Shown piece after piece: positions 38,534 to 39,826 of a stretch of 39,826 nt of DNA. Positions within the stretch are counted from its first letter, which is position 1; the number at the start of each line of letters is the position of its first letter. Made by a program: the position numbers and the translations under genes. Under the pieces are notes generated by a model that worked only from the letters and a program-made list of their open reading frames with translations, had not been told where the DNA came from and made no database searches. This stretch comes from Bacteroidota bacterium (lineage in GTDB: Bacteria; Bacteroidota; Bacteroidia; Chitinophagales; Chitinophagaceae), in NCBI GenBank assembly GCA_029558715.1, contig JAKQEA010000021.1, positions 1-39,826 on the forward strand, read 5' to 3'.

Positions 38534-39073
38534 ATGTTCAACTTCTTTAAAAAGAAAGCTGCTGAAATAAAAGTAATTGACAAAGTAGTGATCGATGAAA
38601 CAGCAAAGCTTAAAGCCATGCTGGACTTGTGGAATACTGATAATAATATAATTTTCATTTTCTGGTTTGATGAGAGTCTTGATAAAGCCGCAGTGTATTT
38701 CGGTAATCAAACAACAGCACCCATAACATTATTAACCGCCAGGGAGGCCGCTACTCCGCAAATAACCGGCAGGATCCCTGTATTTGGAGAGCACTTTCCT
38801 TTACGTAATAAGGAAGAAGAGCTATTCAGCAAGCTGAACCTGGAAACAGTACAGGTGTTTTCTTCCCTTAGGGAGCCCCTGTTTCAGCAATTTGGTAGTG
38901 ATAAAATCATACAGCTCATGCAACAACTGGGCATGAAAGAGGATGAGATTATTGAACATGCCATGATAAGTAAAGCAATAAAAAGAACACAGGAAAAAAT
39001 AGAAAATAAAGTAACGTCAGATTTTTCCGCCCGGTCTCAACAGGATTGGATCGATAAAAATTATATCCTCTAA
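38534..39073 (+). CDS. Small protein with SecA-like segment
   Basis: Residues about 109-160 read FSSLREPLFQQFGSDKII, LMQQLGMKEDEIIEHAMISK, AIKRTQEKIENKV. This closely follows the SecA sequence that comes after the second ATPase motifs in the preprotein translocase motor (SLED.LM..FGSDRI...M..LGM.E.E.IEH.MI.K.IE.AQ.K). The rest of SecA, including Walker A and B, is absent, so it cannot be a motor. The first 105 residues form an unassigned alpha/beta domain (NNIIFIFWFDESLD, then PITLLTAREAATPQITGRIPVFG). It could be a SecA-derived accessory or interaction module. No signal peptide is seen; it is probably cytoplasmic. Confidence 0.8.
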   Translation: MFNFFKKKAAEIKVIDKVVIDETAKLKAMLDLWNTDNNIIFIFWFDESLDKAAVYFGNQTTAPITLLTAREAATPQITGRIPVFGEHFPLRNKEEELFSKLNLETVQVFSSLREPLFQQFGSDKIIQLMQQLGMKEDEIIEHAMISKAIKRTQEKIENKVTSDFSARSQQDWIDKNYIL

Positions 39074-39172: not shown

Positions 39173-39191
39173 CCCAAGTTCTTTACAGTTA

Positions 39192-39310
39192 CTTATCAAG
39201 AAAGGCAGAGGGTAATGGCCCGATGAAGCCTTGACAACCTCCCACACTTAACTAATACGTACCAGTGTGGAAAGGTGCCAATTCCATCTCGCTAAGGCGG
39301 GAGAGATAAG
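39192..39310 (+). ncRNA. SAM-I (S-box) riboswitch aptamer
   Basis: The core follows the SAM-I consensus: P1 strand CTTATC (39192-39197), AGAGGGTAATGGCCCGATGA, then GACAACC, a CCACACT / AGTGTGG hairpin, GGTGCCAATTCC, and the P1 closing strand GATAAG (39305-39310). SAM-I riboswitches bind S-adenosylmethionine and shut down methionine or cysteine biosynthesis and transport genes. No Met gene is seen within the remaining 500 bases of the window, so the target is a small ORF or lies beyond the right edge. Confidence 0.95.
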
Positions 39311-39384
39311 TCAGATCAACAGCTTCAGAATATTTTGTTTCAGCATATTTAAAGCTCATCTGATTTATCGGGTGAGCTTTTTTG
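39305..39384 (+). terminator. Riboswitch expression platform: antiterminator and terminator
   Basis: The terminator stem pairs AAAGCTCATC (39351-39360) with GGTGAGCTTT (39371-39380, one G-U pair) and runs into T residues. The P1 closing strand and following bases, GATAAGTCAGAT (39305-39316), can instead pair with ATCTGATTTATC (39358-39369), 12 bp with one G-U. That overlaps both P1 and the terminator's 5' arm. This is the standard off-by-termination layout: SAM stabilises P1, frees the terminator, and stops transcription. Confidence 0.88.
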
Positions 39385-39591: not shown

Positions 39592-39623
39592 TTTAATTAA
39601 GCAGAAAAAGGCAAATAAATTTG
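39592..39623 (+). promoter_or_regulatory. Second promoter, upstream of the Cys-rich leader
   Basis: A full match to the -7 consensus, TAAATTTG (39616-39623), follows a TTTA (39592-39595, 3 of 4 to TTTG) by 20 nt. The transcript would start near 39630, about 33 nt before the leader ATG. Confidence 0.7.
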
Positions 39624-39662
39624 GAAGAGGGATATAAAGTCCACTAATTTTATCGGGTAAAC

Positions 39663-39740
39663 ATGAATACAAAGGCAATATATTTAAATTCATTCAGCGC
39701 ATCTATCCGGTGCATTTGTTGTCGTTGTTGTATGCCGTAA
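39663..39740 (+). CDS. Cys-rich leader peptide (candidate cysteine-responsive attenuator)
   Basis: A 25-codon ORF starts at ATG 39663 and stops at TAA 39738-39740. Its residues 17-23 read CICCRCC, five Cys codons in seven, directly before MP and the stop. This is the design of attenuation leader peptides, in which a ribosome stalls at codons for the scarce amino acid; here that is cysteine. The perfect promoter box upstream and the hairpin overlapping the stop codon fit this. The N-terminal part (MNTKAIYLNSFSAS) looks like ordinary coding sequence. The controlled gene would start beyond the right edge of the window. No homologue was searched for. Confidence 0.7.
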   Translation: MNTKAIYLNSFSASIRCICCRCCMP

Positions 39741-39747
39741 GGCATAC
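39730..39747 (+). promoter_or_regulatory. Hairpin over the leader stop codon
   Basis: GTATGCC (39730-39736) pairs with GGCATAC (39741-39747) around a loop GTAA that contains part of the stop codon. A ribosome stalled on the preceding Cys codons would cover the 5' arm and block this hairpin. Downstream, ACCC/GGGT (39758-39769) and AAGGG/CCCTT (39764-39779) are alternative, mutually exclusive pairings. None has a clear U-run, so control could be by termination or by masking a start site. Confidence 0.6.
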
Positions 39748-39826
39748 ATAATATTCTACCCAAAAGGGTGTACCCCCTTCCTTTATTGCCGCCATTTTTA
39801 TTAAACCTCAATCTCTCATTCTTAAA

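Follow-up and report, generated by a model that had tools for sequence, protein, structure and literature searches.

The end of one Bacteroidota contig raises the question of whether a short reading frame, rich in cysteine codons and followed by overlapping hairpins, is the leader of a cysteine attenuator, and which operon such an attenuator would control. The stretch of DNA analysed, 39,826 nucleotides from a member of Chitinophagaceae, is called here the window; numbered handles denote loci (L), contigs (C), and genomes (G). A sequence-only reading of its last part had proposed attenuation by ribosome stalling. This proposal is supported by the conservation of both the Cys run and the hairpin that follows it, and by the identity of the downstream gene, metY. 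The element is very probably a cysteine-responsive, ribosome-mediated attenuator of a metY-metX-homoserine dehydrogenase operon, as judged from sequence comparison.

The Downstream Operon and its SAM-I Riboswitch

The window ends at position 39826 together with contig C47. Contig C149 of the same genome begins with the last 141 bases of the window and continues C47; the leader-metY order on uninterrupted contigs of near relatives (e.g., L100) supports this join. The first gene past 39826, which the sequence-only reading expected to be related to sulfur, is identified through the overlap as metY, a sulfur gene. It encodes O-acetylhomoserine sulfhydrylase (TIGR01326, 685.7 bits versus a cut-off of 495.1), starts 94 bases 3′ of the leader stop, and is followed on C149 by metX and a homoserine dehydrogenase gene. 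The MetX assignment is the best match yet falls below the cut-off (340 bits versus the NCBIfam cut-off of 500). An operon under an attenuator is expected to make or feed the amino acid that is sensed, as is the case for metY-metX-homoserine dehydrogenase: homocysteine feeds methionine and, by the established route of reverse transsulfuration, would feed cysteine. The element predicts that, in bacteria with the leader, metY contributes to the supply of both cysteine and methionine.

A second RNA element lies upstream of the leader.

39190–39312, + strand: SAM-I (S-box) riboswitch aptamer, Rfam RF00162, 77.3 bits, E 1.3e-16, kept in 12 aligned relatives
39351–39383, + strand: intrinsic terminator of the SAM riboswitch, AAAGCTCA...TGAGCTTTTTT, recognized by sequence and kept in aligned relatives

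The score of 77.3 against a gathering score of 44.4 places the aptamer in the SAM-I class. The riboswitch with its terminator (39190–39383) and the Cys leader are arranged in tandem on one metY operon, so that two different RNA mechanisms would report on Met/SAM and on Cys, respectively. A riboswitch-only reading of the metY upstream region was rejected, given the SAM-I match together with the shuffle-tested Cys enrichment described below. Further upstream, positions 38534–39073 encode a small protein whose residues 107–159 match a stretch of SecA models (NF009536, E 1.2e-12, far below the cut-off).

The Cys-Rich Leader and its Conservation

The 25-codon ORF with five Cys codons among seven, as originally described, is borne out by the sequence and the ORF translation.

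39663–39740, + strand: leader ORF MNTKAIYLNSFSASIRCICCRCCMP, 25 codons plus TAA, identified by sequence, conservation, and Cys enrichment
39711–39731, + strand: Cys run TGC ATT TGT TGT CGT TGT TGT, five Cys in seven codons, conserved, the proposed stalling site

The Cys codons start at 39711, 39717, 39720, 39726, and 39729, and the stop codon TAA occupies 39738–39740. An amino-acid leader peptide is expected to be a short ORF with regulatory codons upstream of its operon, which describes this ORF.

Among 147 genomes of the family, 66 carry metY at E <= 1e-100, and anchoring succeeded for 65 upstream regions, among them that of the window (L065 was left out, its contig lacking a metY start). 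A short ORF with at least four Cys in its last 14 residues precedes metY in 29 of the 65 regions, compared with a mean of 0.1 in dinucleotide shuffles. Other cut-offs give the same picture: at least two Cys, 39 versus 3.1 in shuffles; at least three, 33 versus 0.6; at least five, 20 versus 0.0. When the test for at least four residues was applied to the other 19 amino acids, at most 2 of the 65 regions passed, and the Cys test on the reverse strand returned 1 of 65. A chance origin of the Cys-rich leader was ruled out by this shuffle control (29/65 observed, 0.1 expected). With the weak calls L035 and L067 dropped, a Cys-rich leader is present in 37 of the 65 family regions; by the tests used, the other 28 are without one. 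A SAM-I riboswitch precedes metY at 29 family loci, and the 65 loci divide into 18 with riboswitch and leader, 19 with the leader only, 11 with the riboswitch only, and 17 with neither, a split that is identical whether sequence match or Rfam at the gathering score is used. The element is present in the genomes of Terrimonas ferruginea DSM 30193, Lacibacter luteus TTM-7, Parafilimonas terrae DSM 28286, and Flavisolibacter ginsengisoli DSM 18119.

With the final two Cys codons of every leader set aside, TGT (143) and TGC (69) both occur, which fits selection on the amino acid. No conservation of the peptide outside the Cys run was seen by eye. The RNA structure is also kept: a hairpin of -6 kcal or lower directly follows the last Cys codon in 30 of the 37 leaders, compared with 11% of shuffles. 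The stem ATGCC..GGCAT is found in 24 of the 37 and a GNRA loop in 20 of the 37, and several loci (L022, L043, L045, L056, and others) have a different stem and keep the hairpin. L028 and L037 read the hairpin in another frame, which indicates that it is kept as RNA. Loss of the Cys run and hairpin in relatives, which would have spoken against the proposal, is thus not what the family shows. In L005, the closest metY relative (94% identity), an H1-like hairpin and the SAM riboswitch are kept, and the leader is degenerate, with scattered Cys codons.

A blind DNA scan of an 84,980-genome collection was performed with the pattern TGYTGYATGCCGYAAGGCAT, which corresponds to the end of the Cys run plus the hairpin. 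Of the 53 stretches returned, 50 precede a metY start. L088 and L106 stop too early for a metY start to be visible, and L091, which carries the label Betaproteobacteria, lacks both leader and metY and is likely a chance match. An in-frame ATG-initiated ORF runs through the Cys codons in 51 of the 53, being absent in L098 (which lies before metY) and L091. Since the pattern holds two Cys codons and the hairpin, the scan cannot count as independent support for these features, but it does count as such for the gene context and for further Cys codons. Thirteen of the 53 stretches duplicate protein-sampled loci, and the pooled set falls accordingly from 115 to 102.

A search for the Cys run in the window's own genome gave six matches, two of which are the two contig copies of the metY leader, and a further three lack an in-frame start on their 5′ side. 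The sixth, MCTVTEMCFSCCCICC at L213 (C181:21670), is a short Cys-rich ORF; no gene of at least 80 codons lies within 350 nt downstream on the strand of this ORF.

The Promoter

The sequence-only reading took TAAATTTG (39616–39623) for a full-consensus -7 box. The spacing in relatives points to another assignment, in which TAAATTTG probably contains the -33 element and TAATTTTA would be the -7 element.

39620–39623, + strand: -33 element TTTG, inside TAAATTTG (39616–39623), its spacing to the -7 element kept in relatives
39645–39652, + strand: -7 element TAATTTTA, separated from the leader ATG by 10 nt, assigned from the consensus of relatives

In 49 of the 73 metY loci with a leader, at least 13 positions match an 18-base consensus, GTCTACTAAATTTGTAGA, which contains TAnnTTTR and lies before the leader ATG, where dinucleotide shuffles give 0.25; a slightly wider search for the promoter consensus found 50 loci. 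In most of the 49, TTTG or TTGG starts 24–25 nt before the TAnnTTTR box (25 and 20 occurrences, respectively, one TTTGG being counted twice). The promoter consensus TAnnTTTG/TTTG is quoted in PMC7366714, which adds that Flavobacterium johnsoniae yielded no -33 motif. The distance of 10 nt from the probable -7 box to the ATG in the window suggests a nearly leaderless ORF. The same distance is at most 12 nt in 23 of the 49 well-matched loci, and thus about half of them look nearly leaderless.

Hairpins 3′ of the Cys Run

The stop codon was placed by the first reading in the loop of a 7-bp hairpin, and the sequence agrees: TAA lies in a GTAA loop on a stem of 7–8 bp (H1). The two alternative hairpins said to follow, TACCC/GGGTG (A:B) and AAGGG/CCCTT (B:C), are also present and mutually exclusive, the GGG block being common to both.

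39729–39748, + strand: hairpin H1, TGTATGCC-GTAA-GGCATACA, 7–8 bp, GNRA tetraloop with the stop codon
39757–39770, + strand: hairpin A:B, TACCC-AAAA-GGGTG, a possible antiterminator; the C-block/G-block/C-block order recurs in near relatives
39764–39779, + strand: hairpin B:C, AAGGG-TGTACC-CCCTT, which excludes A:B; weak and terminator-like, with compensatory changes in relatives
39780–39788, + strand: pyrimidine-rich tail CCTTTATTG 3′ of B:C, an imperfect U-tract

The window and its near relatives share the order C-block, G-block, C-block, followed by TTTTATTG or similar. Column counts over 61 aligned loci (including L058, anchored on a wrong upstream match) place the C-rich block 14–18 nt and the G-rich block 22–28 nt after H1, with approximately 50% T from 36 nt onward. 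The B:C hairpin could be laid out for the window and nine of 12 aligned relatives, counting L121 and L076, which the layout script mis-registered and which pair by eye; in L009, L083, and L005 no B:C-type hairpin was seen by eye. The pair adjoining GGG/CCC is A-T in six loci and T-A in L082 and L094, and at the next pair L107 and L094 have C-G and L112 has T-A.

As an intrinsic terminator, B:C of the window scores poorly (-7.3 in a terminator scan). A score of -10 or lower was obtained for 33 of the 73 family leaders, the window not included, compared with 7.7 in shuffles, many of these matches being H1 itself plus an AU-rich tail. Terminator-like hairpins are clearer in L076, L044, L050, and L095, and in other lineages, than in the window, and the second hairpins of L076 and L094 look like proper terminators. 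Among 19 hand-chosen loci outside the family, 12 score -10 or lower.

A conserved antiterminator was not found in the window's family when duplex energies of H1 or the linker with the B block were compared across 13 loci. The H1:B duplex beats 97% of shuffles in the window, L100, and L112, and fails the 5% level in the other 10 of 13 (L095 7%, L107 8%, the rest worse); the linker:B duplex reaches 5% in none of the 13. No antiterminator is therefore claimed for this family. RNAalifold recovered only H1 from 14 near relatives, its five inner pairs being invariant, and from eight Lacibacter-like loci H1 plus a six-pair helix that in our view is shifted in register relative to the CCCC/GGGG hairpin visible there.

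Probable Attenuators Before metY in Other Lineages

Sixty metY upstream regions from outside the family were collected by class- and phylum-level searches and region fetches; they are best-scoring or hand-picked loci across families and not a random draw (left out were L222 and L240, with no anchored metY start, and L214 and L215, which are family members). At least three Cys in 10 codons were found in 29 of the 60, compared with 3.1 in shuffles; stricter thresholds gave 23 versus 0.0 (at least four) and 13 versus 0.1 (at least five). By the tests used, 31 of the 60 are without a leader. Among other residues, at least four in 10 codons were reached by Met in 12 loci, Leu in 9, Ala in 7, and the rest in at most 5. 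Some lineages mix Met and Cys codons before metY, an enrichment of Met that was seen by inspection only.

The pairing of RNA just 3′ of the regulatory codons with the 5′ half of the terminator was compared with mononucleotide shuffles at nine loci, picked by eye for a clear terminator and belonging to four families by label. In eight of these eye-picked loci a competing antiterminator is found that is better than 94.6–99.8% of shuffles; the share of shuffles as good is 5.4% for L194, 0.6% for L197 (with a hand-set terminator; the automatic pick of a weak hairpin gave 50%), 1.4% for L223, 0.2% for L227, 0.2% for L243, 1.2% for L236, 0.2% for L237, and 1.9% for L241. At L200 the pairing is no better than in shuffles (33–40% as good). 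In L236, L237, and L241 the competing segment is located at the stop codon of the leader, where it would be covered by any ribosome that gets that far, as in textbook attenuation. These three loci, from a distant lineage of the phylum, also carry a SAM-I riboswitch (70.6–74.6 bits) between the Cys/Met attenuator and metY. The window's order of SAM-I riboswitch, Cys leader, and metY is found in L179, L216, L186, and L188, and no Rfam match was obtained in L194, L197, L200, L223, L227, L243, L181, L183, or L207. L181 and L183 have two successive Met/Cys-rich short ORFs, at about -420 to -130 from metY, perhaps tandem attenuators.

Proposed Mechanism and Alternatives

In the proposed mechanism, the promoter at 39620/39645 would start a nearly leaderless mRNA, and the first ribosome would translate the 25-codon leader. 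When Cys-tRNA is scarce, the ribosome would stall within the run of Cys codons, and transcription would read through into the operon; when Cys is plentiful, it would reach the stop in the H1 loop and transcription would end before metY. We infer from the features above that the leader is translated, that the signal is Cys-tRNA, and that control runs in this direction. The weak B:C hairpin (or Rho) may provide the termination step in the window's family. With a ribosome stalled at the first Cys codon, H1 could still form; given this geometry and the lack of a conserved antiterminator, our confidence is placed in the function and not in the molecular switch.

Rho-dependent attenuation, in which C-rich, G-poor RNA after the stop would recruit Rho and the position of the ribosome on H1 would act as the gate, is considered unlikely. 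The segment after H1 in 73 leader loci does contain 23% C and 9.5% G (C/G 2.44) with 62% pyrimidine, whereas the final 80 nt of 27 metY upstream regions with no called leader have C/G 1.63 and 52% pyrimidine, the two sets being unmatched in position. However, plain Rho logic gives the wrong sign, because stalling lengthens the naked RNA, and intrinsic-terminator-like hairpins occur in other lineages and at the family loci L044, L050, and L095. Those terminators in other lineages also argue against a mycobacteria-like translational attenuation, in which stalling would unmask the metY start. The polycysteine ORF, probably nearly leaderless, resembles the mycobacterial case, but in the predicted fold of the window no base pairs involve the 22 nt that precede the metY ATG, and H1 and A:B end well short of this ATG, with only a weak long-range helix reaching approximately -23; this explanation is improbable.

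It is also conceivable, with a very low probability, that the Cys-rich peptide senses metal or redox state and not Cys-tRNA. Copper-responsive Cys-rich upstream ORFs are known in proteobacteria and provide a precedent. Against it, the peptide is unconserved by eye beyond the Cys run while its synonymous codons vary, and other lineages mix Met with Cys codons before metY, a sulfur gene. That the leader ORF is untranslated and the RNA hairpin alone matters is barely credible: L005, with its hairpin and degenerate leader, could be read in this way, but Cys is enriched in frame with codon variation.

Relation to Known Systems

In trp/his leader attenuators the regulatory codons lie at the 5′ arm of the first hairpin and the stop lies between the arms. 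The window shares this placement of codons and stop, and other Bacteroidota lineages have the terminator and competing antiterminator; the window's family differs in that no conserved antiterminator was found and the terminator is weak. Among mycobacterial polycysteine ORFs, we know of none whose stop sits in the loop of a GNRA hairpin. These leaderless short ORFs (Canestrari, 2020, as cited in PMC9031893 and PMC13236596) respond to Cys via ribosome speed and resemble the window's ORF, which is probably nearly leaderless, in their contiguous Cys codons, but they belong to Actinobacteria and are described in the citing passages as translation attenuation (PMC9031893; PMC13236596). The uORFC-8-2 motif, the cysS leader of Rhodobacterales, likewise combines a short ORF, tandem Cys codons in the first stem, and a Cys-linked gene, and ribosome-mediated transcription attenuation was proposed for it (PMC8632094). 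As presented there, it has two tandem Cys codons, usually at positions 14–15, and the U-run of an intrinsic terminator in all described cases (PMC8632094). The window leader, which precedes metY in Bacteroidota and not cysS in Alphaproteobacteria, is not counted as a member of this motif. Within the phylum, attenuation by leader peptides was suggested upstream of amino acid operons of Flavobacterium psychrophilum, and short ORFs were noted in long 5′ UTRs of Bacteroides thetaiotaomicron (the set of PMC9723704 and PMC7366714); neither a Cys leader nor a metY element is named in the passages concerned. Searches of the open full-text literature, which misses most subscription papers, turned up no Cys attenuator for Bacteroidota. 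The element is real and conserved, and Cys attenuators were previously described for mycobacteria and Rhodobacterales.

An Operator-Like Element at the Promoter

A degenerate palindrome overlaps the -7 box.

39639–39659, + strand: degenerate palindromic operator-like element GTCCACTAATTTTATCGGGTA, which reads GTCTACTAAATTTGTAGAC in relatives

In 10 relatives chosen for a good site, matches to GTCTACTAAATTTGTAGAC exceed the reversed-pattern control in nine, with totals of 52 versus 12 when both strands of the palindrome are counted; none was found in G013. The window's own genome shows no excess for the degenerate consensus (4 matches versus 7 in the control). GTCTACTAAATTTGTAGAC is found before metY itself in L153, L156, L168, and L175. 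It may be the site of a sulfur-responsive repressor, which is a suggestion only. A wider scheme is offered tentatively, at somewhat less than even chances: metY attenuators with Cys or Cys/Met codons would occur throughout the phylum and be of class-spanning age, and in Chitinophagaceae the terminator/antiterminator would have been replaced by a GNRA-capped stop-in-loop hairpin after the Cys run, often accompanied by a SAM riboswitch and a promoter operator, so that metY would integrate SAM, Cys-tRNA, and a repressor.

GTCTACTAAATTTGTAGAC also occurs before genes for a tetrapyrrole methylase (SUMT kind), a GAF protein, a DUF4395 protein, three thioredoxin-like proteins, an aldo/keto reductase, a cupin-like protein, and TonB-type receptors, and before a hexapeptide transferase that reads like a serine acetyltransferase. 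At L151, L157, L164, and L171 the element is shared with other genes, some of them sulfur- or redox-like.
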